A DNA stretch of 64,000 bases from Nitrospira sp. (GTDB taxonomy: Bacteria; Nitrospirota; Nitrospiria; Nitrospirales; Nitrospiraceae). Location: assembly GCA_016873395.1 (NCBI GenBank), contig VGXG01000001.1, positions 62,001-126,000 on the forward strand. Direction: 5' to 3'. The position numbers and the translations under genes were made by a program. Below the pieces are notes generated by a model. The model saw nothing but the letters and a program-made list of their open reading frames with translations. It made no database searches and was not told where the DNA came from. Positions 3,110 to 63,229 of the stretch are shown piece after piece (position 1 is the stretch's first letter; every line of letters begins with the position of its first letter).

Positions 3110-3483
3110 GGGTATTCTCTTTTCCTGGTTAGTACCCTTGATCTAGCTTCAGCGATTGTCTCCGCGATTCAAGAACTTGTCAATGTCCTGAACAGGGCGG
3201 CTGAGGGCCATACGCGCCCTCAGCCGCTTCCATTTTTCTCCCTTGTGCGCGGCTGGGCGGGGTGGTTCGCGAGGTCAGGCGCCTCTGCGGGGTATTGGGC
3301 CAACGAAAGCAGCCTCAACTGCGCGGCGCTGGTTCTTATAGTCCGATGAGGCGCCGCGCGATGACGGATGCCTCGCGAAGGGAGAGGGGCATTGCCGCAT
3401 CGAGGCGCCACCCGAGCCGAACTACCCCGCCGTCAGCCGGTCCGGCTACCCCTTCGTCAGCCCTCTGCTCCTTTAGCCAGCCC
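3110..3483. other. Intergenic region with strong hairpin
   Basis: No gene seen. A 12-bp perfect stem (GCGGCTGAGGGC / GCCCTCAGCCGC) lies at 3197-3227 and is followed by a T-rich stretch. Towards the right, 3425-3490 holds GTCAGCC-type heptads that match reverse-complement units in 3195-3260, so the whole gap may be an old heptad island behind uvrA. Confidence 0.5.
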
Positions 3484-6036
3484 TCAGCCCAGCCCCGCTT
3501 CTCTTAACACCTGTCCTGTGTACGACCCTGCCACCCGCGCCACATCTCCCGGTTTCCCTTCTGCCACAATCTCGCCTCCCCGGTCTCCTCCTTCCGGCCC
3601 CAGGTCGATCAGCCAGTCCGCGTTCTTGATCACATCCAGGTTGTGCTCGATGACCAGGACCGTATTGCCCGCTTCAACCAGACGGTTCAGCACGTCCAGC
3701 AGCCGCTGGATATCGGCAAAGTGCAATCCCGTCGTCGGTTCATCCAGGATATAGAGGGTCCGGCCGGTCGCACGCTTGGACAATTCTCGCGAGAGCTTTA
3801 CCCGCTGGGCCTCTCCGCCGGAGAGCGTTGTGGCGGACTGGCCCAGCTTGATGTAGTGCAGCCCCACGTCATGGAGGGTTTGAAGCTTGGCCTTGATGAA
3901 CGGAATCGCCTCGAAGAACTCCAGGGCCTCGTCCACCGTCATGTTCAGCACGTCGGCGATGCTGCGCCCCTTGTACTGGATCTCCATCGTCTCCCGGTTA
4001 TAGCGCTGGCCCTTGCAGACCTCGCAGGTCACGTAGATGTCGGGCAGGAAGTGCATCTCGATCTTGATCAGCCCGTCCCCCTGACAAGCCTCGCACCGTC
4101 CCCCCTTCACGTTGAAGCTGTAGCGTCCCGGCTTGTACCCGCGCACCCGCGATTCCGGCAGCTTGGTGAAGAGGTCCCGGATGAAGGTGAAGAGCCCCGT
4201 GTAGGTCGCCGGGTTGGACCGGGGCGTCCGCCCGATCGGCGACTGGTCGATGTCGATGACCTTGTCCAGCGCCTCCACTCCTTGCAACTCTTTGCACCCG
4301 TCGATCCTGGGCTTCTTTTGATAGAGCAGTTGGGAGAGCGAATGGAACAGCACCTCCAGCACCAACGTGCTCTTGCCGGACCCGGACACGCCGGTCACGC
4401 AGGTCATCAGCCCCAGCGGGATGCGCGCGGTGATGCCCTTCAAATTGTGTTTTCTGGCCCCGACGACGGCGAGCACGCCTTTCGGTTGGCGGTGCCGCCT
4501 GGGCAAGGCCACGGTGAGGTCCCCGCGCAGATATTGGCCGGTCAGCGAAGCAGTGTGGGTCATGATCTCGACCGGCGAGCCCTGGGCGATAATCTGCCCT
4601 CCATGCGCGCCGGCCCCCGGCCCCAGGTCCACGATGTGATCCGCCGCCCGCATCGTCTCCGCGTCATGCTCCACGACGACGACCGTGTTGCCCATATCCC
4701 GCAGACGCAGCAGGGTCTGGAGCAGCCGCCGGTTGTCCCGCTGGTGGAGTCCGATAGAGGGTTCATCCAGGATGTAGAGGACCCCCACCAATCCGGAGCC
4801 GATCTGGGTCGCCAGGCGGATGCGCTGTCCTTCCCCGCCGGACAAAGTCGCGGCGGGTCGATCCAGCGTCAGATAGTCGAGCCCCACATTGACCAGAAAA
4901 CCGAGCCGCTCGCGGATCTCTTTCAAGATACGCTGGGCAATGAAGCTCTCCCGCTCGGTCAGTTTCAGCGACGCAAAGTAGTCGGCCGCGGCCAGGACCG
5001 AGAGTTGCGTCACCTCCGCGATCGAGCGCCGCCCCACCTTCACCGAGAGGCTCTCCGGCCTGAGGCGGGCCCCCTTGCAGATCGGACAGAGGTCCAGCAG
5101 CGTAAAGTCCTCTTCCATTTCATCTTGCGGGCTGCCGGGCGCGACCGCATAGCCGATCCCGTCGCAGGCCGGGCAGGCGCCGTGTGGACTGTTGAAGGAA
5201 AAGACCCGCGGGGTGATCTCCGGATAACTGACCCCGCAGCGGATGCAGGCCAGCTTTTCACTGTAGAGGAACGATTTGCCGCTTTCGGTCAGGACGCCGA
5301 CCAGTCCATCGGCCAGCTTCAGCGAAGTCTCCACCGAGTCGGCCAGCCGTTTGGCCAGGGCGTCGCCCGGCCCGCTTGCCGTGAGCGAAGTCGAACTGGC
5401 CGGCTTCGTGACCAATCGATCGACGACGATCTCGATCGTGTGTTTTTTCTGTTTATCTAACGTGATGTCCTCGCCCAAATCGACTATGTGGCCGTCAACC
5501 CGTGCCCGGACATAGCCGGCCCGCCTCATGTCCAATAACTCTTTGCGATACTCGCCTTTCCGGCCCCGCACGATCGGCGCCAGGATCTGAAACTTGGTCC
5601 CCTCCGGCAGCGTCCGGATCGCGTCCACCATCTGCTGGACCGTCTGCGCGGTGATCTCCTCCCCGCAGTTGAAGCAGAAGGGCCGGCCGATCCGGGCGAA
5701 GAGCAGCCGCAGGTAGTCATAGATTTCCGTCACGGTCCCGACGGTGGAGCGGGGGTTGTGGCTGGTGCTCTTCTGCTCGATAGAGATGGCCGGCGAGAGC
5801 CCTTCGATCGAATCCACGTCAGGCTTGCCCATCTGCTCCAGGAACTGGCGGGCATAGGCGGACAGCGACTCGACGTAGCGCCGCTGCCCTTCGGCGTAGA
5901 TCGTGTCGAAGGCGAGGGAGGACTTGCCGGACCCGCTCAGGCCGGTGATGACCACGAGCTGATCCCGCGGGATCTCGACGTCCAGGTTCTTGAGGTTGTG
6001 TTCCCGCGCGCCGCGGATGATGATTTTTCCGGACAT
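3484..6036 (-). CDS. uvrA: Excinuclease ABC subunit A (UvrA), shortened form
   Basis: DNA damage-recognition ABC ATPase that loads UvrB. Both nucleotide-binding halves are intact: Walker [10 protein letters not shown] near residue 31 and GVSGSGKST near 552; signature LSGGEGQR near 398 and LSGGEAQR near 737; [10 protein letters not shown] and [10 protein letters not shown] Walker B motifs. Zinc cysteines are present in CIRCG/CPAC and [16 protein letters not shown]. It is 850 aa, about 90 shorter than usual: between the CPACDGIGY motif and CPICKGARL only about 20 residues remain, where other UvrAs have about 100. A palindromic repeat encodes [13 protein letters not shown] near residue 212. The ATG at 6034-6036 matches the family start ([17 protein letters not shown]). 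Confidence 0.96.
5386..5412. repeat. Short palindromic element inserted in frame in uvrA
   Basis: CTTGCCGTGAGCGAAGTCGA is a diverged copy of the CCCTGAGC/TCGAAGG palindrome family. Read on the minus strand it encodes the Ser/Thr-rich stretch [10 protein letters not shown], which has no counterpart in ordinary UvrA. Confidence 0.5.
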
Positions 6037-6114
6037 AGTAGCCCCGTGGGCGGCGAGATTATAACATGGTGGACAACCAATGAAGTGGCCTGGAGAATGC
6101 AGGTAAGGGCGCGA

Positions 6115-6453
6115 TCAAGACTCGCGGAGAATCTGCTTCACCTGTTCCTCGAAAACCGGCAGTTTGTGCTGAATAATGTCCCAGATGATTTCGATATCGA
6201 TACCGAAGTACTCGTGAGCGAGGATGTCTCGCACACCGCCGATCTTCTTCCAATCAACATCGGGATATTTCCCCCGCACGCCCTCAGGAATTCTCTTGAC
6301 CGCCTCCCCGATGATTTCCAGATTTCTGACCACGGCATCGAAGGTCTTGTCATCCTTCGAGAGCGCGTCCATCGACAGGCCTGTCGTATACCTGCGGATC
6401 TTCCCGATCGCCTCAAGAACGTCTTCGAGGTAAACCTTATAGTCCCGGGGCAT
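6115..6453 (-). CDS. hepT: HepT-like HEPN toxin
   Basis: 112-aa HEPN-fold protein of the HepT (DUF86) family, a ribonuclease-type toxin. The catalytic RX4HXY motif is intact (RDILAHEY), and the family core NLEIIGEAVKRIPE and YFGIDIEIIWDII is present. The start is taken at ATG 6451-6453 (MPRDYKVYLEDVLEAI), which matches the family; an upstream in-frame ATG would add 18 residues of no resemblance. It overlaps the 3' end of the upstream antitoxin gene by 17 bp, as usual for this pair. Confidence 0.9.
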   Translation of the reverse strand: MPRDYKVYLEDVLEAIGKIRRYTTGLSMDALSKDDKTFDAVVRNLEIIGEAVKRIPEGVRGKYPDVDWKKIGGVRDILAHEYFGIDIEIIWDIIQHKLPVFEEQVKQILRES

Positions 6454-7522: not shown

Positions 7523-8329
7523 ATGATTCAACTCAATGAAAAACCGGCGCACGTGAAGCCTGCCCTGAGCCGAGCCGAAGGACCGGTCCCGCCGCCACCT
7601 GCCGGCACCGTTCCCGACTGGTCCGGCAAGGGCAAGGAGCAGGCGGTCCAGCGGATGTTCACCGCGATCGCGCGCTGGTATGACCTGAACAACTCCCTGC
7701 TCAGCTTCGGGTTGCATCACCGGTGGAAACGCCGGGCTGCTGTCTTTGTGCCGACTACTCAAGGCGGCCGCGCCATGGACATCGGCGCCGGCACGGGCGA
7801 TCTGGCCCTGCTGATCGAGCCCCGCATGGGCAACGGCGGACGAGTGGCAGCGGTGGACTTGAACCAGGCGATGCTCCGCGAGGGCCTGCGCAAGATCGCG
7901 CGGCGCGGCGCGGCCGGCCGCATCACCTGCCTGCGCGCAAACGCCGAGCAGTTGGGGTTCCGAGAGGCCAGCTTCGACGCAGTGACGACCGGCTTCTGCA
8001 TCAGGAACGTGAGCGATCTCATGGCCGCCTTCGCCGAGATCCGGCGGGTGCTGAAGCCGGGCGGACGCTTTGTCTGCCTGGAGTTTTCCCGTCCCGTGCG
8101 GACCTGGTTGCTCCGCCTCTATGACTGGTATTCCTTCAGCCTCTTGCCGTGGATCGGCACCCTGGTGGCGCGCGACCGGACCGGGGTCTACCGGTACCTT
8201 CCCGCCTCGATCCGGGCCTTTCCCGATCAGGAAGCCTTGAAAGAGCTGCTGCTGAAGGCCGGCTTCAGGCAGGTGGAGTATCACAACCTGAGCGGCGGCA
8301 TCGTCGCGATCCACGTAGCCATCAAATAA
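7523..8329 (+). CDS. ubiE: Demethylmenaquinone methyltransferase (UbiE/MenG family)
   Basis: SAM-dependent C-methyltransferase of quinone synthesis. The core has AMDIGAGTGDLA (SAM motif I), AAVDLNQAML (motif II), the family signature GFCIRNVSDLMAAFAEIRRVLKPGG and a C-terminal YHNLSGGIVAIH close to the UbiE consensus. At 268 aa it is about 20 longer than usual because the N-terminus (residues 1-33) carries a repeat-derived stretch PALSRAEGP. Translation might instead begin further in, but no good internal ATG precedes WSGKGKEQAVQRMFTAIA. The organism type suggests menaquinone as product. The next gene is a B12-type radical SAM protein on the same strand. Confidence 0.9.
   Translation: MIQLNEKPAHVKPALSRAEGPVPPPPAGTVPDWSGKGKEQAVQRMFTAIARWYDLNNSLLSFGLHHRWKRRAAVFVPTTQGGRAMDIGAGTGDLALLIEPRMGNGGRVAAVDLNQAMLREGLRKIARRGAAGRITCLRANAEQLGFREASFDAVTTGFCIRNVSDLMAAFAEIRRVLKPGGRFVCLEFSRPVRTWLLRLYDWYSFSLLPWIGTLVARDRTGVYRYLPASIRAFPDQEALKELLLKAGFRQVEYHNLSGGIVAIHVAIK
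7557..7588. repeat. Short palindromic element in the 5' end of ubiE
   Basis: GCCTGCCCTGAGCCGAGCCG followed by AAGGACC is a member of the palindrome family CCCTGAGCNNNNCGAAGG. It encodes PALSRAEGP upstream of the conserved UbiE core. Confidence 0.6.
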
Positions 8330-8424
8330 CAAGAGCTGATAGCATATAGCGTATGGCTCAGTATGGCTCAGATTGACCGAAGCTTTCTTGCCACCGGCTA
8401 TATGCTATAAGCCATAAGCTCTTG
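8329..8424. repeat. Inverted-repeat island between ubiE and radical SAM gene
   Basis: CAAGAGCTGATAGCATATAG near 8330 is answered by CTATATGCTATAAGCC and AAGCTCTTG near 8398-8424, giving a long imperfect stem with internal GTATGGCTCA repeats. It has the same two-arm architecture as the heptad islands. Confidence 0.75.
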
Positions 8425-8430
8425 GTGTTT

Positions 8431-10074
8431 ATGAACTCCATCCTCTACGTCTTCCTTCCCTGCAAGAAGGTCTACCCGATCGGGGTCACCTACCTGGCGG
8501 ATTTCGTACACCGCCGGCGTCCGGACGTGCGGCAACTCATCCTGGACCTCTCTATCTATCCGCAGGACCAGCGGCCTAAGGTCTTACGCGAGGCTGCGTC
8601 GGCTTTTGCACCTGATTTGGTGTGCTTCTCCTGGCGGGACATCCAGATTTTCTCGCCCCACGAAGGGGATGCCTCGCTGGAACATGCTTTCAACTTTTAC
8701 TATGCCAGCAACCCGCTCAAGCGGATCGCCGCCTCCTTTCAGGGGCTCAAGCAGCTCTACCGGTATTACCACGACATCCAGGCGAACCTGTCCTACCCCT
8801 GGCTGATCCGCAAGGAGTTCCCCAAGGCGCGGATCATGATCGGGGGCGGCGCCTTCACTGCCTTCGCGGACCAGTTGATCGAGAAGCTCCCGGAGGGGAC
8901 GATCGGTATCCTGGGCGAGGGGGAAGATGCGATTGTGAAAGTGCTGGAGGGACAGCCGCTGGAGGATGAGCGCTACATCATCCGCGAGGGTGGCCGCACA
9001 TCGAAGGGCGAGCAGCGTGCCCCGGCGCTCTTGGATGCCCTGACCGTGGACCTCCCCTACCTCACCACGATTTTCCCTCAGTACCGTGACTACATCGGGG
9101 AATCCATCGGGGTCCAGAGCAAGCGGGGCTGCCCCTACGACTGTGCCTTCTGCCTGTACCCCTACATCGAGGGGAAGCGGGTCCGCTACCGGCCACCGGA
9201 GATGGTCGTGCGGGACATCTCACAACATTACCACCAGTGGGGCGCCAGACGCTTCTGGTTCACCGACGCCCAGTTCATCACCGGCAAGGAAGCCTACCCA
9301 CAATGTATCGAGATCCTGGAGCGGATCATCCGCGAGCAGCTTGAGATCGAATGGTCCGGCTACATCCGCACGTCGCTGATCACCGCTGATCTGGCCAAGC
9401 TGATGGTGCGCTCCGGCGTCGGCGACCTGGAAGTGGCCATCACTTCCGGCTCCCAGGAGGTGCTCAACAACCTCCACATGGGCTTTAAGCTGGAGCGCCT
9501 CTACGACGGCTGCCGCCACCTGGCCGAGGCAGGGTTCAAGGGCAAGGTGATCCTGAACTATTCGCTGAATTCCCCGAAGGAAACCGAGGAGACGCTGCTG
9601 CAGAGTGTCGAGTCTTACAAGATCGTGGCCTCGATCCTGGGGGAGGAACGGGTCTTCCCGCTCATGTTCTTCCTGGGCATCCAGCCGAACACCGACTTGG
9701 AGCACCGGCTGCTGGAAGAAGGCTACCTCTCGGCCGGCTACAACCCCCTGATGCTGACTCCGATGAGCATCCGCAAGCTCCTATACAATCCAGCGCCGCT
9801 GAACAAGTTCATCGCCAAAGCCTGCCTGGCTGCCTGGCACAAGAAGCACGGCAGCCGGGACCCGCGACGCTGGTCCGGCTCCCTGTCGCAGACCGAGACC
9901 GGCGGACAGGGAGCAGCAGCTCCCGCCTATGCCGACGGCAACCTGATCCGAGGGATCGAAGGCAACTCCGGCCGGGAAGCCCTCCTGACTTTAGAGCAAA
10001 TCCTCCGATCGAGAAAATCCCCTGATCCATCAGCCAGTGCGAGCCATCACCCCGCTGTCAGCTCCGCCCGCTGA
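8431..10074 (+). CDS. B12-binding-type radical SAM protein
   Basis: 547 aa. The N-terminal ~150 residues have the Rossmann-like layout of a cobalamin-binding domain (YPIGVTYLADF, PDLVCFSWRD, KARIMIGGGAFTAF, GILGEGED). The radical SAM core follows with the cluster motif CPYDCAFC (cysteines at about 234, 238, 241), ARRFWFTDAQF and SGVGDLEVAITSGS. The ATG at 8431 is preferred over a TTG nine bases upstream. The reaction cannot be told from sequence; such enzymes often methylate unactivated carbons or build lipids and cofactors. It directly follows ubiE in the same direction, so a quinone- or lipid-related role is possible but only inferred. The last 70 residues are Ala/Ser/Pro-rich and poorly conserved-looking. 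Confidence 0.8.
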   Translation: MNSILYVFLPCKKVYPIGVTYLADFVHRRRPDVRQLILDLSIYPQDQRPKVLREAASAFAPDLVCFSWRDIQIFSPHEGDASLEHAFNFYYASNPLKRIAASFQGLKQLYRYYHDIQANLSYPWLIRKEFPKARIMIGGGAFTAFADQLIEKLPEGTIGILGEGEDAIVKVLEGQPLEDERYIIREGGRTSKGEQRAPALLDALTVDLPYLTTIFPQYRDYIGESIGVQSKRGCPYDCAFCLYPYIEGKRVRYRPPEMVVRDISQHYHQWGARRFWFTDAQFITGKEAYPQCIEILERIIREQLEIEWSGYIRTSLITADLAKLMVRSGVGDLEVAITSGSQEVLNNLHMGFKLERLYDGCRHLAEAGFKGKVILNYSLNSPKETEETLLQSVESYKIVASILGEERVFPLMFFLGIQPNTDLEHRLLEEGYLSAGYNPLMLTPMSIRKLLYNPAPLNKFIAKACLAAWHKKHGSRDPRRWSGSLSQTETGGQGAAAPAYADGNLIRGIEGNSGREALLTLEQILRSRKSPDPSASASHHPAVSSAR

Positions 10075-10498: not shown

Positions 10499-12625
10499 AT
10501 GTACAAGACAATCTATATCCCCGTCGATAATTCGGATTATTCCAATACGGCGGTTGATTTGGGGGTCAGCCTGGCCAAGACCTTCGGCTCCAAAATCGTG
10601 GGGAGCCACGTCTACGCCGCCAAGATGCACGATAAACGCTTCAAGCAGATGGAGGCCGGTCTCCCGGAGGAGTACCACGACGAAAAGGAGCTGGACCGGC
10701 AGCGCCAGATTCACGATTCGCTGATCACCCGTGGGCTTCAGATCATCACCGACTCCTACCTCGATTACGTCGACAAGAAATGCACCGAGGCCAACCTGCC
10801 CCTGGAGCGCCGCTCCCTGGAGGGACGCAACTGGAAGGTGCTGGCCGAGGACATCAATACCAACGCCTATGAGCTGGTCATCATGGGCGCGCTGGGCGTG
10901 GGCGCCGTCAAAGACAGCATGATCGGCAGCAACACCGAGCGGGTCGTCCGCCGCGTGCGGAACTCCGACATGCTGGTCCTCAAGAACACCCAGCCGATGA
11001 GCCATCAGTTGAACGGGGGCAAGATCGTCGTCGCGGTGGACGGAAGCGCCTACTCCTTCGGCGGGCTCATGACGGGCCTGGCTCTGGGCAAAGCCCTCAA
11101 CAAGCCGGTCGAGGCCATTTCCGCCTTCGATCCCTACTTCCACTATGCCGCCTTCCACAGCATCTCCGGCGTGCTGAACGAAGAGGCCGGCAAGGTCTTC
11201 CGCTTCAAGGAGCAGGAGAAGCTGCACGAGGAGATCATCGACAGCGGCCTGGCCAAAATCTACCAGTCCCACCTGGACATCTCCCGCGAAATCGCCCAGG
11301 CGGAGAGCACCGACATCAAGACGACCCTGCTGGATGGCAAGGCCTTCGAGAAAGTCATCCAGTACGTGCGCAAGGACGTGCCCTGGCTCCTGATCGTCGG
11401 CCGCATCGGCGTCCACAGCGACGAGGACATGGACATCGGCAGCAACACCGAGAACCTGCTCCGCAGCGCGCCCTGCAACATCCTGATCTCGAACCGCAAG
11501 TACGTGCCGCCCATCGACACCCAAGCCGAGTACACGATCGCCTGGACCGAAGAAGCCCTGGCCCGGATGGAGAGAATCCCGGTCTTCGCCCGAGGGGTCG
11601 CCAAGACGGCCATTCACCGTTACGCGATCGAGAAGGGCCATACCATCATCAGCAACACGGTGGTGGACGCGGCGGTCGGCCATATCCTCCCCAAGGGCGC
11701 GATGGACGCCATGAAGGCGCTGGGCGGGAGCCTGGATGCGGCCGGGATCGACCGGAACAAGATGCAGGCGGACGACGCGGTGGCCAAGGATTTGATGGGC
11801 AATACGCTCAGCGGCATGATGACCGAGATCGTGCAGGAGAAGCCCGCGTCAGGTGCAACCCCCGTCAGCCCCGGCACCCAGGCCTACCTGGATCGTATGA
11901 GCCAGACCTACTTCGTCTGCGACGGCTGCGGCTATATCGGCAAAGGCGACACACCGGTGAAGTGCCCCGTCTGCGGAGCCGAAGGCACCCGCTTCAAACA
12001 GGTGGACAAGAGCATCTTTGAGGCGGCGGCCAAGGCGGAAGGCGGGCTGGAGACCGACCTGGCCTACGACGATGTCCCCATGCAGTGGACCAGGGACGCC
12101 AAGGAAGCCATCCGGACCGTGCCGGCCGGGTTCCAGCGACGGCGCGCCAAGGCCAAGATCGAGAAGACTGCCCGCAAGCTGGGCATGACGACGATCACGC
12201 TCGAATACGCAGCCCCGATGATCAAAGAAGCGGCGACTGAAGACTACACCCCGATCTTCGCCAATAAGGGGACCGGCACAGCGCCGGCCTCGACCGGAGC
12301 GAACGCCGACCTGGGCGGCGGACACAGCCCGGGCAGCAATGGCGGTAACGGAGGTAGCCAGATGCCTTCACCCCCACCCTCGCCCTCCCCCTATACCTGG
12401 ACCCCGGAAGCCCAGGAGCGACTCGACCGGGTCCCGGCCGGCTTTATGCGCGATTGCACCCGCGCCCTGATCCAGAAACATGCGGAGAAGATCGGCGCCA
12501 CCACCATCACGCTCGAGGTGGCGAACACCGGCATCGAGCAGGCCAAGGGGACCATGGAAGAGGCGATGAAGACCGGCAACCTGAAGGATATTATCGCCCG
12601 CCTGACGGGCGCCGGCGCCTCCTAA
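10499..12625 (+). CDS. UspA-UspA-rubredoxin-like protein with three PCP_red domains
   Basis: 708-aa soluble protein. Residues 1-160 and about 175-335 are two universal-stress-protein domains (VIMGALGVGAVKDSMIGSNT and LLIVGRIGVHSDEDMDIGSN are their nucleotide-site motifs). Three copies of the PCP_red domain, known from the C-terminus of the BchB/ChlB subunit of dark protochlorophyllide reductase, follow at about 345-400 (WTEEALARMERIPVFARG), 527-575 (WTRDAKEAIRTVPAGF) and 631-690 (WTPEAQERLDRVPAGF). Between the first two lies a rubredoxin-like knuckle (CDGCGYIGKG...CPVCGAEG, about 473-495). A Gly/Ser/Pro linker (about 595-628) precedes the last copy. It has an excellent ribosome site and is followed by a radical SAM gene with a fourth PCP_red copy. 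The domain calls are firm; I infer an Fe-binding redox or tetrapyrrole-related stress role. Confidence 0.88.
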   Translation: MYKTIYIPVDNSDYSNTAVDLGVSLAKTFGSKIVGSHVYAAKMHDKRFKQMEAGLPEEYHDEKELDRQRQIHDSLITRGLQIITDSYLDYVDKKCTEANLPLERRSLEGRNWKVLAEDINTNAYELVIMGALGVGAVKDSMIGSNTERVVRRVRNSDMLVLKNTQPMSHQLNGGKIVVAVDGSAYSFGGLMTGLALGKALNKPVEAISAFDPYFHYAAFHSISGVLNEEAGKVFRFKEQEKLHEEIIDSGLAKIYQSHLDISREIAQAESTDIKTTLLDGKAFEKVIQYVRKDVPWLLIVGRIGVHSDEDMDIGSNTENLLRSAPCNILISNRKYVPPIDTQAEYTIAWTEEALARMERIPVFARGVAKTAIHRYAIEKGHTIISNTVVDAAVGHILPKGAMDAMKALGGSLDAAGIDRNKMQADDAVAKDLMGNTLSGMMTEIVQEKPASGATPVSPGTQAYLDRMSQTYFVCDGCGYIGKGDTPVKCPVCGAEGTRFKQVDKSIFEAAAKAEGGLETDLAYDDVPMQWTRDAKEAIRTVPAGFQRRRAKAKIEKTARKLGMTTITLEYAAPMIKEAATEDYTPIFANKGTGTAPASTGANADLGGGHSPGSNGGNGGSQMPSPPPSPSPYTWTPEAQERLDRVPAGFMRDCTRALIQKHAEKIGATTITLEVANTGIEQAKGTMEEAMKTGNLKDIIARLTGAGAS

Positions 12626-12631
12626 ACACAA

Positions 12632-12757
12632 CGCTGAATGATGAGTGATGAATGCTGAGTGAAAGAAGCGATTGATCTAGCCATGGCGCGTTCTCTTCCG
12701 ATCTTCAACCCTGAACAGTCCCCCCGTTCATCACTCATCACCCATCACTCATCACTC
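12632..12757. repeat. Heptad repeat island (GTGATGA / ATCACTC)
   Basis: Left arm ATGATGAGTGATGAATGCTG, right arm CATCACTCATCACCCATCAC and CATCACTCG. The right arm is inside the predicted 5' end of the following gene and encodes SSLITHHSSLVH. Confidence 0.85.
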
Positions 12758-14035
12758 GTTCACGACGGCCGGACTGTCGATGATTTCAAGCCCTTCCTCG
12801 TCGCGCTGAACCTCACCAAACGCTGCAACCTCAAGTGCGCCCACTGCTACCTGGATGCCACGACCAAGGCCGGCGGGGGCACGGACGAGCTGACCACGGA
12901 AGAGTGCACCCGCCTTATCGACCAGATCGCGGAAGTCAACCGAGGCTGCCTGTTGGTCATCACCGGCGGCGAGCCTCTCACCAGACCCGACATCCTCGAC
13001 ATCGCCCGGCATGCCGTGTCCCTCGGCTTCATGGTCGTGTTCGGCACCAACGGGATGCTCATCAACGACCGGATGGCCAAGGAACTGGTCGAGATCGGCG
13101 TCATAGGGGTCGGGATCAGCATCGATTCCCTGGACCCGCAGAAGCACAATCGCTTCCGGGGTCTGGAGGGAGCCTGGGAAGGAGCCGTGGCCGGTATCGA
13201 GGCCTGCAAACGCAACGGGCTGCAGTTCCAGGTCCATTTCAGCGCGCAACCCATGAACTACCAGGAGTTGCCGCAGGTCATCGACTGGGCCCACGGCCTC
13301 GGCGCGCGGGTGCTGAACGTCTTCTTCATGGTCTGTACCGGCCGTGGAGAGGAGCTGACCGACATCACCCCGGCCCAGTACGAAGAGGTGCTGGGCTACC
13401 TGGTATCCTGTCAGGACAAGTACAAGGACATGCTCGTCCGCGCCCGCTGCGCGCCGCACTTCAAGCGGCTGGCCTATGAGAAGGACCCCAACTCGCCCAT
13501 CACCAAGGCCCAGGGCTATATGGGGGGCGGATGCCTGGCCGGCACCAACTATGCGCGGGTGACGCCGAACGGCGAGCTCACCCCCTGTCCTTATATGCCG
13601 CTCTCGGCCGGCAACATTCGCGAGACGAGCTTCGTGGATTTGTGGGAAAAGTCCGACATCTTCGACTCCTTCCGCTATCCGCACCTGAAAGGCAAGTGCG
13701 GAGACTGCGAATACAGCGAGATTTGCGGCGGCTGCCGCGCGCGCCCCTACGTGGACCACGGGGATTGGCTGGACGAGGACCAGTGGTGCCTCTACACCCC
13801 GAAGGGCGGCGAGAAAGTGCGCGTCGCCTTCAACACCGACGAGGCCTTTGACGGCGTGTGGGATGAAACCGCCCAGGCGCGGCTGAGCCGCATCCCCTAC
13901 TTCCTGCGCGCGATGGTGAAGAAGGGCGTCGAGCGGCATGCGCGGGAACAGGGCATCCCCGTGATCACGGTCGAGTTGATGGAAGAGCTCCGGAAGAAGC
14001 GATTCGGCAACGAAGCCCCGGTCTTCAAATTCTAG
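12659..14035 (+). CDS. Radical SAM/SPASM protein with C-terminal PCP_red domain
   Basis: 458 aa from GTG 12659, or 450 from ATG 12683; the first ~40 residues are repeat-derived and the true start is uncertain. The SAM cluster motif is CNLKCAHC (about 56-63), followed by ITGGEPLTRPDI and FGTNGMLI. A SPASM-like C-terminal cluster region has GGGCLAG, CPYMPLSAGNI, KCGDCEYSEICGGCRARP and WCLYTP. Overall order and motifs resemble NirJ/AhbC/AhbD enzymes of heme d1 and alternative heme synthesis. Residues ~400-445 (WDETAQARLSRIPYFLRAMV) form a PCP_red domain like the three in the upstream gene. I infer that the two proteins act together, perhaps on a tetrapyrrole; the substrate is unknown. Confidence 0.85.
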   Translation: MKEAIDLAMARSLPIFNPEQSPRSSLITHHSSLVHDGRTVDDFKPFLVALNLTKRCNLKCAHCYLDATTKAGGGTDELTTEECTRLIDQIAEVNRGCLLVITGGEPLTRPDILDIARHAVSLGFMVVFGTNGMLINDRMAKELVEIGVIGVGISIDSLDPQKHNRFRGLEGAWEGAVAGIEACKRNGLQFQVHFSAQPMNYQELPQVIDWAHGLGARVLNVFFMVCTGRGEELTDITPAQYEEVLGYLVSCQDKYKDMLVRARCAPHFKRLAYEKDPNSPITKAQGYMGGGCLAGTNYARVTPNGELTPCPYMPLSAGNIRETSFVDLWEKSDIFDSFRYPHLKGKCGDCEYSEICGGCRARPYVDHGDWLDEDQWCLYTPKGGEKVRVAFNTDEAFDGVWDETAQARLSRIPYFLRAMVKKGVERHAREQGIPVITVELMEELRKKRFGNEAPVFKF

Positions 14036-14152
14036 CGTGAGACGTGAAACGTTAGGCGTAAGGGGGTAATCCAGATGCGCTCTTATAACGGAATGCTTCG
14101 TCCTTTTATGTCTCACCCCTCACCCCACACCCCTCACCCCTCACGGCTTTCA
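14036..14152. repeat. Repeat island (CGTGAAA / CCTCACC arms)
   Basis: GTGAGACGTGAAACG just after the radical SAM stop codon, and CTCACCCCTCACCCCACACC plus CCTCACCCCTCACGG before the next start. Two-arm layout as in the other islands. Confidence 0.7.
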
Positions 14153-14154
14153 GA

Positions 14155-14682
14155 ATGAGCGCCCTCCAGTCCATCCTGACTGATCTCAACCAGCTCATCC
14201 CGATCCTGAACCATTGGTTTCACCTCGTCTCCGCGGTCGTCTGGATCGGCGGCCTGGCCTTCCTGGTCATGACCGTGACACCGGGCCTGCGCAAGGCGGT
14301 GCCCCAGGAGTTCGTCAAACCGATCACGGACACCTTCTACCGGCACTTTAAGCGCATCATCGGGGTCCTGTTGGTGGTGATCCTGTTCACGGGCGGGATC
14401 AACCTCCACTACGTCAACCAGATGATGCTATCCCAGACCGGCCTGGGGGTCGTCAACAACGCCAAGTACCTGACTATTTTCTTCATCAAGCTCTTTCTGG
14501 TCCTGGGGGTGATGACCCTCTTCCTCTACACCGTCATCTTCAAAACCGACGCGACCGGCGAGGAGACGGCCGAGGAGAAGGAAGAGCAGCTCCGGGAGCC
14601 CATCCCCTTCCAGCGCGCCGCCCTCTGGATGGGTCTCTTCATCATCCTCTGCGCCGCGGCCTTAAAACACCTGCATAACTAA
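14155..14682 (+). CDS. CopD-like small membrane protein
   Basis: 175 aa with four transmembrane segments (about 19-41, 62-80, 97-122, 155-170). The first carries HWFHLVSAVVWIGGLAFLVM, a His-containing, WIGG-type motif found in CopD and other small b-heme or copper-related membrane proteins; a second His cluster (KHLHN) closes the protein. A charged loop with many Glu lies at 128-145. It follows the PCP_red radical SAM gene on the same strand and ends at a possible terminator, so it is probably the third member of that group. The ligand is not determined by the sequence; heme is my guess. Confidence 0.65.
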   Translation: MSALQSILTDLNQLIPILNHWFHLVSAVVWIGGLAFLVMTVTPGLRKAVPQEFVKPITDTFYRHFKRIIGVLLVVILFTGGINLHYVNQMMLSQTGLGVVNNAKYLTIFFIKLFLVLGVMTLFLYTVIFKTDATGEETAEEKEEQLREPIPFQRAALWMGLFIILCAAALKHLHN

Positions 14683-58381: not shown

Positions 58382-59881
58382 TCACCCGCCGAAGGGAAGC
58401 ACCGCAGGCGGCACGGCTGAGGCGGCGGGCGCAGCGAACTGGGAGAACATGAGCGTGGCGGACACGGCCCAGTCGATGAAGGGCCGGGGATAGACGCCCA
58501 GGATCAAGGTGCCCGCGAGACCCACGTAGATGACCGCCTTCATCGGCGCGGACACATACAGCGGCGAGGGATCGATCGGCTCGTTGATGTACATCTTCTT
58601 GACCACGATCAGATAGTAGTACATCGAAATCACGATGTTGATCAGCCCCACGATGAGGAGGGTGTACAGCCCTTCGTTGATCGCCGCCACGAAGATGTAG
58701 AGCTTGCCGATGAAGCCGGCCAGCGGCGGCACGCCGGCCAGGGACAAGAGAAACACCAGCATCGCCATGGCCAGGAACGGGGAACGGCGGTTCAGGCCGC
58801 TGTAGTCCTCGATCTCGTCGCTCTGGATCAGGTTCCCGACCGCAATCACCACCGCAAACGCGCCCAGGTTGGCAAACAGATAGGTCAGCAGGTAGAACAG
58901 GATCGCATCGCCGCCCATCTTGGTGCCGGCCGCCAGCCCGATCAGAATGTTGCCGATCTGCGCGATCCCTGAGTAGGCCAGCAGCCGCTTGATGTTTTTC
59001 TGGGCGATGGCGACGATGTTGCCGTAGGTCATCGAGAGGATGGACGCCCCCACCAGCAGCAACACCCAGGCCGGCTTGAGCGTGGCCAGGGACACCATGA
59101 ACATCCGGAGCAGGATCGCAAAGGCGGCCCCCTTGGGCGCAATCGAGAGAAACGCGGTCACCGGCGTCGGCGCCCCGTGGTAGGTGTCCGGGATCCAGGA
59201 ATGGAAGGGCACGGCGCCGATCTTGAAGCCGAGCGCTGCAAAGATCAGCAGGAACCCGATCACCAAGCCGGTCGTCGGCTGGGCCGCGGCAATGTCCGAG
59301 AAGACCAGCTTGCCCGTCTCGCCAAACACCAGGCTGATGCCGTAGGCCAGCACGCCGGCCACGAACACACCCAGGATGAAGAACTTGAGCCCCGCCTCGT
59401 TGGAGGCGACGTCATCGCGAAGGTAGGCGACCAGGACGTAGAAGCCGAAGGTCGAGAACTCCAGCGTGATGAAGACCGACAGCAGGTCGTTCGCCGAGGC
59501 CATGAACATCATGCCCAAGGCCGACATCAGCACGAGGAAGTAATACTCGCCCTTGAAGAACCTGAACTTCCTGACGTAGTCCACCGAGATCAGGACCACG
59601 AGGATCGTGGCCGCCACGATCATGATCTTGAAGAAGACCGCCAGCCGATCCACGACGAACATGTTCGCGAAGAGCGTGCCGGTGACGTCGGCCCGGTCGA
59701 ACCAGATGAGGTTCAGCAACACGGCCGCCAGGCCGCCGACGCTCAGGTACGCCAGCCGGTCCTTGGGCAGCCGCGGCATCGCAAAGTCCACGATCAGGAC
59801 GACGCAGAGCCAGACCGTTAGCAGCAGCTCTGGCAGCATGAGCAGGAGATCGGAGCCGGACAGGGTCAGGTTAAAGGTCAT
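58382..59881 (-). CDS. nuoN: NADH-quinone oxidoreductase subunit N
   Basis: 499 aa, 14 transmembrane segments, antiporter-like proton-pumping subunit of complex I. Key features: LITLEFSTFGFYVLVAY-type TM5 Glu (FITLEFSTFGFY), GFKIGAVPFHSWIPDTYHGA (Lys and HSW motif), TAFLSIAPKGAAFAILLRMF (Lys), LAYSGIAQIGNI, LSLAGVPPLAGFIGKLYIF. ATG 59879-59881 matches the family; the frame upstream is a heptad island. Last gene of the complex I block. Confidence 0.96.
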   Translation of the reverse strand: MTFNLTLSGSDLLLMLPELLLTVWLCVVLIVDFAMPRLPKDRLAYLSVGGLAAVLLNLIWFDRADVTGTLFANMFVVDRLAVFFKIMIVAATILVVLISVDYVRKFRFFKGEYYFLVLMSALGMMFMASANDLLSVFITLEFSTFGFYVLVAYLRDDVASNEAGLKFFILGVFVAGVLAYGISLVFGETGKLVFSDIAAAQPTTGLVIGFLLIFAALGFKIGAVPFHSWIPDTYHGAPTPVTAFLSIAPKGAAFAILLRMFMVSLATLKPAWVLLLVGASILSMTYGNIVAIAQKNIKRLLAYSGIAQIGNILIGLAAGTKMGGDAILFYLLTYLFANLGAFAVVIAVGNLIQSDEIEDYSGLNRRSPFLAMAMLVFLLSLAGVPPLAGFIGKLYIFVAAINEGLYTLLIVGLINIVISMYYYLIVVKKMYINEPIDPSPLYVSAPMKAVIYVGLAGTLILGVYPRPFIDWAVSATLMFSQFAAPAASAVPPAVLPFGG

Positions 59882-61559
59882 TCGTTCCCTCGTGACGAGT
59901 GACGAGTGACGGGTGACGAGCGACAGGTGACACATTATCGGCTTGCTTCCTCGACGCGTCACGCGTCACGCGTAACGCGTCACCGTTCTGCGCCGCCAGC
60001 GGCACGACCTGCATGATCCGGGAAACCAGCGGGTCCGTCCCGGCTCGGATGACGTTGTAGAAGTGCCCGGGGAAGATCCCGAACGTGATGCTGCACGCGA
60101 TCATGAGCAGCAACGGCAGCCGGTCATACCAGGCCACCGCGTCGTGCGCATGGCTGTACTGGCTGTCCATCGGCCCGTAGAACAGGCCCCGCATCATCCG
60201 GAAGAGATAGGCCATCGTCAGCACGATGCCGACCACTGCCACGATCACCTGGAACGGGTACCGGTTCCAGCTTCCCACCAGGATCATGACCTCGGCGATG
60301 AAATTCACGGTGCCGGGCATCCCGATGGAGGCCATGCAGGCGACCAGAAAACAGCCGGCGACGAACGGCATGCGGTTGACCAGCCCGCCGAGCGAGGGGA
60401 TGTCGCGCGAGTGAGTCTGGTCGTAGACCCAGCCGGCCATGGCGAACAGCATCCCCGTGGCCAGCGCATGGGCGAACATGTAGAGGACGGCGCCGCTCAA
60501 ACTGATGTAATCCAGCGCCGCCATGCCGAGGAACACATAACCCATGTGGCTAGAGCTGGAATAGCCGATGACATACTTGGTGTCCTTCGCGTAGTAGGCC
60601 ACGAACCCGCCGTAGATGATGCTGAACACGCAGAGGAACGCCGCGATCGGCATCAGCTCACGGGTGGTCTCGGGCAGGATCTCGAAGGCCACGCGGATGA
60701 TCGAGAAGTGCCCCAGCTTCATCAGCACGCCCGCGTGCAGCATGCTCGTGGCGGCCGGCGCGGCAGCGTGGCCGACCGGCGACCAGGAGTGGAGCGGCCA
60801 GATCGGCGCGATCGAGGCAAAGCCGAAGAAGACCAGTAGCCAGATGATCGTGGCCAGATTCCCCGAGAACTTGGCCTGCTCGCGCAGCACCAGGATGTCG
60901 AAGGTGTGCAGCCCCGAGAACTTGTAAATCAAGAGGATTCCCAACAGGGCGACGACCGCTCCGGCCGAGAGGAACAGGGTCAGCTTCATCGCCGCATACT
61001 CTTTGCTGTTGGCGGCGAAGTTGAAGATGAAGCCGACCGAATCGCGCTGCTTCAGTCCTTCGGGATCCTTCATCTCCAGGTATCCCTTGGTATGGCTCCC
61101 CCACACGCCGAGCAGGACATACATCGGGAGCACGGACATCTCATAGAAGAAATAGAGGAAGAACAAGTCCAGCGACATGAACACGCCGATCGTGGCGGCG
61201 GCCAGGATCAGCAGGAAGATGTAGAACTCCTTGGTCCGATCCTTGATATGCCAGGAAATGAAGATCCCTGCAAACAGCAGAATGGCCGAGGCCAGCACCA
61301 GCGGCGTGCCGATCCCGTCCACCCCCAGATAGAAGGCGATACCCAACTCCTTGGACCACTCAAACCGCTGGACGAACTGGAACCCTCCCTTCACCGGATC
61401 GTAGGCGAAAAACAGATAGAAGGATGCAAGCAGCGAGATGCCGGCGGCGATCGCGGCGACCAGGCGGACCTGGAGGGCTTGCCGGTTCGGCACGAACAGC
61501 AGCACGATCGCCCCCAGGAAGGGCGCGAAGAGGATGTAGAGCAAGGTATAGTCTGCCAT
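59871..61559 (-). CDS. nuoM: Second NuoM-like subunit (NuoM2)
   Basis: 562 aa, ~14 transmembrane segments, NuoM family. The TM5 Glu is present (FFLYFFYEMSVLPMYVL), as are the TM8 Lys (LMKLGHFSIIR) and the TM12 acidic residue (GMPGTVNFIAEVMIL). But the TM7 motif, normally GLAFKAPMFPFHTWLPDAH, reads GFASIAPIWPLHSWSPVGHA: the conserved Lys is Ile and the PFHTWLPD loop is altered. An extra ~35-residue hydrophilic loop (SHTKGYLEMKDPEGLKQRDS, VGFIFNFAANSKEYAAMK) lies near residue 155. The last ~30 residues (VARHPSLVTRHEGTNDL) come from a repeat island, and the gene overlaps nuoN by 11 bp. This is the extra M subunit of a 2M-type complex I. Confidence 0.92.
   Translation of the reverse strand: MADYTLLYILFAPFLGAIVLLFVPNRQALQVRLVAAIAAGISLLASFYLFFAYDPVKGGFQFVQRFEWSKELGIAFYLGVDGIGTPLVLASAILLFAGIFISWHIKDRTKEFYIFLLILAAATIGVFMSLDLFFLYFFYEMSVLPMYVLLGVWGSHTKGYLEMKDPEGLKQRDSVGFIFNFAANSKEYAAMKLTLFLSAGAVVALLGILLIYKFSGLHTFDILVLREQAKFSGNLATIIWLLVFFGFASIAPIWPLHSWSPVGHAAAPAATSMLHAGVLMKLGHFSIIRVAFEILPETTRELMPIAAFLCVFSIIYGGFVAYYAKDTKYVIGYSSSSHMGYVFLGMAALDYISLSGAVLYMFAHALATGMLFAMAGWVYDQTHSRDIPSLGGLVNRMPFVAGCFLVACMASIGMPGTVNFIAEVMILVGSWNRYPFQVIVAVVGIVLTMAYLFRMMRGLFYGPMDSQYSHAHDAVAWYDRLPLLLMIACSITFGIFPGHFYNVIRAGTDPLVSRIMQVVPLAAQNGDALRVTRDASRKQADNVSPVARHPSLVTRHEGTNDL
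59885..59985. repeat. Island GTGACGA / GCGTCAC at the nuoM2-nuoN junction
   Basis: Left CGTGACGAGTGACGAGTGAC GGGTGACGAGCGACAGGTGAC; right GACGCGTCACGCGTCACGCG TAACGCGTCAC. It lies in the 3' end of nuoM2. Confidence 0.93.
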
Positions 61560-61569
61560 AGCGCTTCGC

Positions 61570-61680
61570 TTTGGGCGAGAGGCAAGCGGCTAGAGGCGAG
61601 TGGTACGGAAAATCTTCATGGTTCTCTTCTTGTTTCCGTTCTCTCCACTTGCCACTTGCCACTTACCACTCGCCCCGTCG
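61570..61680. repeat. Island GGCGAGA / CACTTGC between nuoM genes
   Basis: Left GGGCGAGAGGCAAGCGGCTA GAGGCGAG; right CCACTTGCCACTTGCCACTT ACCACTCGCC. The right arm codes for the last residues of NuoM (SGKWQVERTETRREP). Confidence 0.88.
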
Positions 61681-63229
61681 ATAGCAACACGTCAATCTTA
61701 GCCACTTGCGCGCCGCGGTCCAATCTATCCACCAGCGCCTGCACCGACCCATTCATGATGCGCAAGAACGGCGACGGGTAGAGCCCGATCCAGAACACCA
61801 TGACCGACAGCGACACAGCGATCACCAGCTCGCGCCCCTTCAGATCCGCCATCGTGTGGCTGAGGCCCTGGGCCAACGGCCCGAACATGGCCCGCTCGTA
61901 ATACCAGAGAAAGTAGGCGGCTCCCAAAATCACCCCCGTCACCGCGACCGTCCCATAGAGCCAGTAGGCCTTGAAGGCGCCCAGCAGGATCAAAAATTCT
62001 CCGACAAAGCCGTTCGTCCCGGGCAACCCGATGGAGGCCAGCCCGATGATCAGCAGGAACGTGGCCAGGAGAGGCACCTTCCTGGCGAGCCCCCCGAAGG
62101 CCGCCAGGTTGGTGGTCTGCCGCCGATGGTAGAGGAAGCCGGCCAGGAAGAACAGCCCGGCCGTGCTGAAGCCCAGATTGATCATCGTGAGCAGGCTGCC
62201 TTGCAGGCCCTGAAAGTTCAAGGCGAACAGCCCGACCACGACAAAGCCCAAGTGGCTGATGCTGCTGAAAGCCAACAGCCGACGGAAGTCAGGCTGGATC
62301 AGGGCCACGATCGCTCCATAAAGGATGGCGATCAACGCCAAGGTCATCATGACCGTCACCACCCCCTCATTCCGCGAGGCATCGGGCAGCAGCGGTAGGC
62401 TGAACCGGATGAAGCCGTAGGTCCCCAACTTGATCCCTGCCAGGATCACGGCCATGCCGATCGGTCCTTCCAGCAGGGCGTCCGGGAGCCAGGTATGGAA
62501 GGGGAACATCGGGGCCTTGAAAGCCAGGCCCATGAACAGGAGCCAAAAGATCAACACCTGCCGGTCGATCGGGATCGGAATCGTCAGCAGTTGCAGAAAA
62601 TCGAAGGTGTAGGGCGGGTCCGCGTGATTCGTCACCGCCCACTCGTGATAATTGAGGTCCAGCAGCACGATCCCCACCAGCATAAAGACGCTGCCCAGCA
62701 GGGTGTAGAGGACATACTTGAGCGCCGCATACTGACGCTCGGCTCCGCCGCCCCAGAGCTTAATCAGGAAATAGCTCGGGATCAGCATGAGCTCCCAGAA
62801 TACGAAAAAGAGGATCAGGTCGAGGGACACAAAGACGCCGACGATCGTAGTCTCCAGGGCCAACAGCGCCACGAAGTAGGTTTTGACTTGATGCCGGACC
62901 GTATCCCACGAATAGAGCACGATCAGTACGGTGAGGAAGGCCGTGAGGGCGACGAACAGGACGCTGATGCCGTCGACCCCCAGGTGATAGCCGATCCCCA
63001 GGGGGGGAATCCAAGCGACCCGTTCGACGAATTGCATCGCGGCGGAGTCCGGCACGAAGTGCAGCAAGACAACGCAGGCCAGAACCAATTCCAGCCCCGC
63101 CACCGCCAGCGCCGCGTTCTTGATCAAGTCGTCATCATTGTCCAGCAGCCACAGGACAATGGCGCCCAGCAGCGGAAAGAACAAGAGCATCGACAGGACC
63201 GGGAATCCGAATGTCAGTTCTTCAAGCAT
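61616..63229 (-). CDS. nuoM: NADH-quinone oxidoreductase subunit M
   Basis: 537 aa, ~14 transmembrane segments, canonical NuoM. All pumping residues are in place: TM5 Glu in ILFFVFWELMLIPSYFL, TM7 Lys in GLAFKAPMFPFHTWLPDALL, TM8 Lys in VILAGIKLGTYGFIRF, TM12 Glu in GLPGTNGFVGEFLIL. The N-terminus (GFPVLSMLLFFPLLGAIVLW) is usual. It lies between nuoL and the second M copy, with islands on both sides and ~55 bp to nuoM2. Confidence 0.95.
   Translation of the reverse strand: MLEELTFGFPVLSMLLFFPLLGAIVLWLLDNDDDLIKNAALAVAGLELVLACVVLLHFVPDSAAMQFVERVAWIPPLGIGYHLGVDGISVLFVALTAFLTVLIVLYSWDTVRHQVKTYFVALLALETTIVGVFVSLDLILFFVFWELMLIPSYFLIKLWGGGAERQYAALKYVLYTLLGSVFMLVGIVLLDLNYHEWAVTNHADPPYTFDFLQLLTIPIPIDRQVLIFWLLFMGLAFKAPMFPFHTWLPDALLEGPIGMAVILAGIKLGTYGFIRFSLPLLPDASRNEGVVTVMMTLALIAILYGAIVALIQPDFRRLLAFSSISHLGFVVVGLFALNFQGLQGSLLTMINLGFSTAGLFFLAGFLYHRRQTTNLAAFGGLARKVPLLATFLLIIGLASIGLPGTNGFVGEFLILLGAFKAYWLYGTVAVTGVILGAAYFLWYYERAMFGPLAQGLSHTMADLKGRELVIAVSLSVMVFWIGLYPSPFLRIMNGSVQALVDRLDRGAQVAKIDVLLSTGRVVSGKWQVERTETRREP

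Follow-up and report, generated by a model that had tools for sequence, protein, structure and literature searches.

Introduction

PCP_red is a small domain known mainly from chlorophyll synthesis, where it forms the C-terminus of the B subunit (BchB/ChlB) of dark protochlorophyllide reductase (DPOR). The window studied here, i.e. the whole 64,000-nucleotide stretch of Nitrospira DNA that was analysed, belongs to a 2.34-Mb draft genome (G000) and carries this domain four times in a row of three genes. They encode a 708-aa protein with a tandem of universal stress protein domains and PCP_red (Usp2-PCP), a 458-aa radical SAM/SPASM-PCP_red enzyme (rSAM-PCP) and a 175-aa membrane protein with four transmembrane segments (4-TM). 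A first reading made from the letters alone (the sequence-only reading) had placed this trio at 10499-14682, and all three genes are present there. With a confidence just short of even, we propose that these genes belong to a biogenesis system, based on PCP_red, that modifies an iron porphyrin for an NXR-linked respiratory module.

Several components resemble described systems and depart from them. The PCP_red domain is the same as that of DPOR subunit B by sequence and predicted fold, but the proteins considered here lack the nitrogenase-like core, and the domain is repeated and carried by other enzymes. The heme b synthase AhbD (TIGR04545) has in common with rSAM-PCP the radical SAM/SPASM architecture, the CX3CX2C motif, about 40% identity and the full SPASM motif CX20-33CX17CX36-37CX2CX5CX2CX17-35C, published for AhbD of methanogens and sulfate reducers (PMC10452713). 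Unlike AhbD, rSAM-PCP ends in PCP_red, scores below the family cut-off, falls in another clade, lacks the invariant E51 and R64, and is found together with AhbD, HemQ, HemN or HemF. NirJ2 (TIGR04055) and NirJ/AhbC belong to the same subfamily and NirJ2 has N51/Y64 in common with rSAM-PCP, whereas NirJ2 is devoid of PCP_red and lies outside the PCP clade, its cut-off not being reached by rSAM-PCP either. The tandem universal stress proteins UspE, Rv2623 and TTHA0350 contain two Usp domains with the ATP motif, as the 708-aa protein does, but not its additional C-terminal PCP_red/rubredoxin region. Finally, a cluster with NXR, an alternative NxrC (alt-NxrC) and a bd-like oxidase, whose respiratory genes are recurrent neighbours of PCP_red genes, is conserved in Nitrospira, Nitrospina and anammox bacteria. 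In the portions available of three papers (PMC3578206, PMC6606698, PMC8026999), its function is called enigmatic, and the bd-like oxidase and alt-NxrC are strongly expressed with a cofactor content given as unknown. Those portions name neither PCP_red nor radical SAM genes as cluster members, and text searches of the three papers for 'radical SAM' returned nothing.

Results

The identification of the four repeats as PCP_red, for which the sequence-only reading had named the fold as a check, holds. A profile of the copies retrieves DPOR B subunits in the PDB (2kru, 5e-13; 2xdq, 3e-11; 3aek, 1e-7), and a common short-strand/three-helix pattern is predicted for all four in the window; against the DPOR subunit B profile, the match is confined to the PCP_red part (478-529 of 535). 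A weak PCP_red/histone H4 profile match (E 0.03) was also seen. The trio belongs to a wider set of five proteins with an ApbC/Mrp partner, which that reading had missed. G000 contains 12 PCP_red domains (11 above cut-off), distributed over the two window proteins, a 258-aa Cys4-ribbon protein with two copies (Cys4-PCP) whose gene adjoins that of an ApbC/Mrp ATPase, a 333-aa protein with four (4xPCP) and a 172-aa Cys-rich protein with two. The domain occurs in 61 of 61 relatives, mostly in many copies, and in 78 of the 148 genomes of the phylum. A DPOR-type B subunit was not found in G000, where all five PCP_red proteins are of other kinds, which supports the earlier designation of the organism as a non-phototroph. 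A literature search returned no description of PCP_red outside phototrophs, although its coverage is incomplete and this is no proof of novelty. In Poribacteria, a conserved protein of 137-138 aa with a degenerate C-terminal PCP_red is encoded shortly downstream of rSAM-PCP (Table 1).

Homologous loci (L-numbers) were fetched from families (f-numbers), mostly from metagenome assemblies with many short contigs (C-numbers). Named homologues of the window radical SAM gene at 80-88% identity come from Nitrospira and other Nitrospirota/Nitrospirales. The genes co-occur well beyond the window genome, another check named by the sequence-only reading: in two Nitrospirales families (f1 and f3) rSAM-PCP is followed by the 4-TM gene in 28 of 28 loci, and co-occurrence extends to other lineages. 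Wherever the contig allows, the Usp protein precedes rSAM-PCP in f1 and f3, neighbours often overlapping by a few bases; in f4, rSAM-PCP is present only in a more distant form (46%). Gene fusions connect the set further: f15 joins rSAM-PCP and 4xPCP in a single protein, and f9 joins Usp2-PCP to the tail of 4xPCP. The Usp, rSAM and 4xPCP genes are adjacent in f7. Over 14.5 kb, locus L066 (f6) unites Usp2-PCP, rSAM-PCP, 4xPCP, a heme-oxygenase-like protein, Cys4-PCP, Mrp, a DUF420 membrane protein and alt-NxrC, and L067 is also a cluster shared by members of the set. Usp-PCP, Mrp, Cys4-PCP and rSAM-PCP lie within one stretch in Poribacteria (L094) and Bacteroidota (L114), and Mrp adjoins the Cys4-PCP gene in Nitrospirales f1 and f4, other Nitrospirota, Poribacteria and Bacteroidota. 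The parts thus belong together, tied by fusions and shared clusters. A 15-kb stretch from Cys4-PCP to 4xPCP on contig C7 was rejected as a single cluster; yebC, ruvAB, aro and rpsA lie between these genes, and therefore only direct neighbours were counted. Two other neighbours were recorded: a PNPOx-like split-barrel protein beside rSAM-PCP in Chloroflexi (L113 7802-8533) and Bacteroidota (L114 7247-8023), and a Haem_oxygenas_2-like gene between Cys4-PCP and 4xPCP (L066 8566-9252, with a Pfam match; L087 4300-4992).

In the 458-aa protein, Pfam recognizes Radical_SAM (88.4 bits), SPASM (38.4 bits) and PCP_red (59.5 bits, cut-off 32.5), in agreement with the claim of a radical SAM/SPASM enzyme ending in a fourth PCP_red copy. 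Judged from its relatives, the gene probably starts at about 12683 instead of 12659. The enzyme reaches 322.8 bits with NirJ2 and 309.3 bits with AhbD, both below the curated cut-off of 500. Its cysteines (C264-X27-C-X17-C-X36-C-X2-C-X5-C-X2-C-X17-C) reproduce the full AhbD SPASM motif for two auxiliary clusters, a motif also seen in 40 out of 41 homologues. In a tree of 89 sequences, the 34 rSAM-PCP proteins make up one clade (99/94) covering at least eight phyla (Nitrospirota, Nitrospinota, Planctomycetota, Poribacteria, Rokuibacteriota, Chloroflexota, Bacteroidota, Pseudomonadota and others). AhbD forms a separate clade (100/98), and NirJ2 together with two archaeal proteins is placed, weakly, as the sister group of rSAM-PCP. 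At two positions where AhbD has an invariant E and R, rSAM-PCP has N51 and Y64, and NirJ2 likewise N and Y. The NirJ/Ahb-type relationship proposed earlier is supported in that the enzyme belongs to the AhbD/NirJ2 tetrapyrrole branch, in which rSAM-PCP appears to be a third branch beside these two families. The structural model (pLDDT 82.5) has PqqE, SuiB and anSME as nearest PDB folds.

The domain content read earlier in the 708-aa protein stands, with two Usp domains (PF00582, 97.5 bits, cut-off 24) and three PCP_red copies (PF08369, 113.9 bits, cut-off 32.5). Both Usp domains keep the GX2GX9GS ATP motif and qualify as universal stress proteins, the model matches the tandem Usp structures Rv2623, UspE and TTHA0350, and conservation within Nitrospirales is 77-90%. 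As to the rubredoxin-like Cys4 knuckle, the motif (CX2CGY..CPVC) is present, but its RUBY_RBDX score (PF21349, 25.1 bits) is just below the cut-off of 26.5; the L067 homologue, with three such knuckles, reaches 55.2 bits. Most Usp2-PCP forms contain the knuckle, and those of f9, f15 and anammox bacteria (L053, L056, L103) do not, so that the central role once given to rubredoxin is not sustained. The L067 protein (3459-6155) is a giant 898-aa form with three knuckles and five PCP_red domains, and the radical SAM frame beside it gives a profile match in two pieces.

The 4-TM protein had been described as CopD-like with an HX4WIGG motif. The membrane protein is real, but its CopD match (PF05425, 21.4 bits, cut-off 32.1) is below threshold and the motif is in fact HX6WIGG (H23, W30). 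DUF4149 matches weakly and TIGR00701 gives 13.8 bits against a cut-off of 138, so that neither the CopD nor the HemJ cut-off is reached. H23 and K112 are invariant in 14 aligned members. This protein stands beside rSAM-PCP in 28/28 Nitrospirales loci, 8/42 other loci and 0/38 AhbD/NirJ2 control loci. An assignment as HemJ was rejected: PF03653 detects no true HemJ in 21 relatives, its weak matches being other genes.

Genomes with rSAM-PCP possess diverse routes for the decarboxylation leading to heme b: HemQ in f1, f3, f7, Nitrospina and one Chloroflexi, HemF in f5, HemN in f6 and f15, and a separate AhbD-like enzyme in f9, Brocadia and Anammoxibacter. HemQ, HemN, HemF and AhbD were all looked for in f13 and f14 and none was found. 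Within the phylum, families with an AhbD devoid of PCP_red mostly have no PCP_red at all. The occurrence of rSAM-PCP alongside every heme b route argues against a mere substitute for coproheme decarboxylase and favours a step that comes after heme b synthesis or is separate from it. Two independent observations support the tetrapyrrole link suggested by the sequence-only reading. In f16, PCP_red is fused to the N-terminus of a HemQ-like domain of the chlorite dismutase family (L062 4552-5679, L063 5036-6061), and both f15 and L089 have as next gene a protoporphyrinogen/coproporphyrinogen oxidase (TIGR00562, 304 and 240 bits against a cut-off of 98). The f16 fusion is the sole chlorite-dismutase-family match in most of those genomes. 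In a reduced 2.0-Mb relative, a HemQ homologue contains two kinds of internal stop, TGA and TAG (G155:C23:13293-13733).

Outside f1 and f3, 42 rSAM-PCP loci were compared with 38 AhbD/NirJ2 control loci using the same probe set. An alt-NxrC/EB_dh, bd-like oxidase or NXR-type operon neighbour accompanies 9/42 rSAM-PCP loci (8 non-redundant, 7 lineages) and 0/38 controls (Fisher p 0.003; control genomes unmatched for carrying respiratory genes). For 8/41 loci, the probability is 5e-6 to 8e-4 if the chance per locus is 2-5%, a rate that is assumed, with control genomes again unmatched. In L088 (f15, on the same contig as L056), a bd-like oxidase, two cytochromes c, an alt-NxrC with three c hemes and EB_dh, Usp2-PCP and the rSAM-PCP-4PCP fusion follow each other on one strand, and HemY is next after the rSAM-PCP-4PCP row in L056/L059. 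L058 combines cytochrome c, alt-NxrC, Mrp and Cys4-PCP with gaps of about 30 bases. The enzyme occurs with alt-NxrC and/or bd-like oxidase in Anammoxibacter (L103), Scalindua (L095), Chloroflexi (L113) and Bacteroidota (L114), and in Betaproteobacteria (L117, L144) it immediately follows an NXR-like molybdenum operon that includes an EB_dh heme b subunit. On contig C43 of G000 itself, the 172-aa protein is flanked by a DUF420 protein and by a membrane protein preceding a bd-like oxidase; a second bd-like oxidase, two cytochromes c and alt-NxrC follow downstream, an order repeated in L182 and L183. The PCP_red set is hence associated with the respiratory module, a recurrent neighbourhood that had escaped the sequence-only reading, and we infer the chemistry behind it.

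Discussion

From the observed domain make-up, conservation, clade, fusions and gene neighbourhoods, we infer a substrate, a reaction, a role for PCP_red and a service to a respiratory complex. In the proposed biogenesis system, rSAM-PCP would perform oxygen-independent radical chemistry on an iron porphyrin (heme or a late heme precursor) that would serve the NXR-linked module, made up of alternative NxrC, c-type cytochromes and bd-like oxidase, in nitrite oxidizers, anammox bacteria and their relatives. Through their PCP_red domains, the enzyme, the tandem-Usp scaffold, 4xPCP and Cys4-PCP may hold the tetrapyrrole or dock to one another, ApbC/Mrp and Cys4-PCP may supply Fe-S clusters, and the HX6WIGG protein may act as membrane-side partner. 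A more daring version, which we regard as rather unlikely, makes PCP_red a general tetrapyrrole-handling domain: the system would equip the bd-like oxidase/alternative NxrC complex with a modified heme not described so far, and scaffold, enzyme and membrane partner would hand the substrate on from one PCP_red domain to another. Several points weigh against an iron porphyrin system serving respiration. The trio itself adjoins the respiratory cluster in 0/28 Nitrospirales loci, and 33/42 rSAM-PCP loci have no respiratory neighbour within about 6 kb, though short contigs are frequent. Control genomes were unchecked for the presence of respiratory genes. Peptides, too, are modified by SPASM enzymes, which makes a protein substrate conceivable, and tetrapyrrole binding by PCP_red beyond DPOR is presumed.

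It is unlikely, in our view, that rSAM-PCP is an oxygen-independent coproheme decarboxylase, i.e. a functional AhbD that would make ordinary heme b, perhaps at low oxygen. Its closest families, the full AhbD SPASM motif, the HemQ-like fusion and the f13 and f14 genomes, where HemQ, HemN, HemF and AhbD were not found, would all suit this activity, as would the adjacent protoporphyrinogen oxidase, given that ahbD colocalises with hemY/hemH/hemQ (PMC10548856). However, the enzyme coexists with HemQ (f1, f3, f7, Nitrospina), HemF (f5), HemN (f6, f15) or, in f9 and anammox bacteria, a distinct AhbD-like enzyme. It does not fall within the AhbD clade and has N51/Y64 in place of the invariant E/R pair. 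As the whole answer, AhbD replacement was rejected: every heme b route co-occurs with rSAM-PCP, and only f13 and f14 offer no other candidate. Next to this AhbD-like role, the main open rival is a peptide-modifying enzyme: PCP_red would simply dock proteins, and the target of the radical SAM enzyme would be a protein or peptide belonging to the respiratory complex. The presence of PCP_red in many partners and in tandem, the scaffold-like Usp2 and the nearest solved folds (peptide maturases and PqqE) are in line with this, but the nearest sequence families act on tetrapyrroles, the HemQ-like fusion and protoporphyrinogen oxidase neighbours point the same way, and no precursor-like peptide was noticed, no search having been aimed at one. 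Altogether, we deem it distinctly unlikely.

Two narrower roles fare less well. That the system mainly assembles Fe-S or metal centres (ApbC/Mrp, Cys4-PCP, rubredoxin) is very improbable: the Mrp/Cys4-PCP adjacency that recurs across the lineages listed above would fit, but an AhbD/NirJ2-type enzyme with eight auxiliary-cluster cysteines and the HemQ-like fusion would be left unexplained. The ATP motif kept in both Usp domains would suit a stress-regulated set for heme handling or repair, tuned by ATP binding; yet no stress genes lie nearby and the Usp tandem is the sole link, so that the stress role earlier advanced is not borne out and such a set seems highly improbable.

The trio and its partners may thus represent an unrecognised heme or cofactor maturation system for respiration common to nitrite oxidizers and anammox bacteria. 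If the proposed biogenesis system is real, its dedicated maturation genes would be the missing helpers for making bd-like/alternative NxrC complexes in the laboratory, PCP_red would gain a function beyond chlorophyll synthesis, and a new clade would join the small family of heme-tailoring radical enzymes.

Features of the window

Table 1. Coordinates of the trio, its domains and the Poribacteria protein with a degenerate PCP_red
Feature	Position	Strand	Basis
Usp2-PCP_red-rubredoxin-PCP_red2 protein, 708 aa	10499..12625	+	Pfam; Usp motifs; model match; conservation
PCP_red copy 1	11543..11674	+	Pfam; profile matches DPOR B subunits in PDB
Rubredoxin-like CX2CG..CX2C knuckle, optional part	11912..11998	+	RUBY_RBDX 25.1 bits
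PCP_red copy 2	12086..12220	+	Pfam
PCP_red copy 3	12398..12529	+	Pfam
Radical SAM/SPASM-PCP_red enzyme, 458 aa	12659..14035	+	Pfam; SPASM cysteine spacing; own clade; model
CX3CX2C radical SAM cluster motif (C56, C60, C63)	12824..12847	+	Invariant in 41 sequences
PCP_red copy 4, C-terminal domain of radical SAM enzyme	13859..13993	+	59.5 bits; three helices 403-449 (model)
4-TM CopD/HemJ-like membrane protein, 175 aa, HX6WIGG	14155..14682	+	Weak CopD/DUF4149
Poribacteria degenerate-PCP_red protein	L094 8062-8478; L097 8258-8674; L098 6634-7050; L102 8078-8491		

The gap between the radical SAM and 4-TM genes (14036-14145) contains the short imperfect repeats CGTGAGACGTGAAACG and TCACCCCTCACCCC. 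A promoter/terminator scan and RNA folding of this gap upstream of the 4-TM gene gave no signal beyond chance. Upstream of the trio, ubiE (7523-8329) and a gene for a B12-binding radical SAM protein (8422-10074, +) are found. The nearest family of the latter is cyanobacterial slr0320, 'photosystem II high light acclimation' (443 bits, cut-off 775), and its gene is kept just upstream of the trio in f1, not in f3. Further along the window (58382-63229, -), NuoN and two consecutive NuoM genes are the mark of the '2M' complex I type known from Nitrospira.

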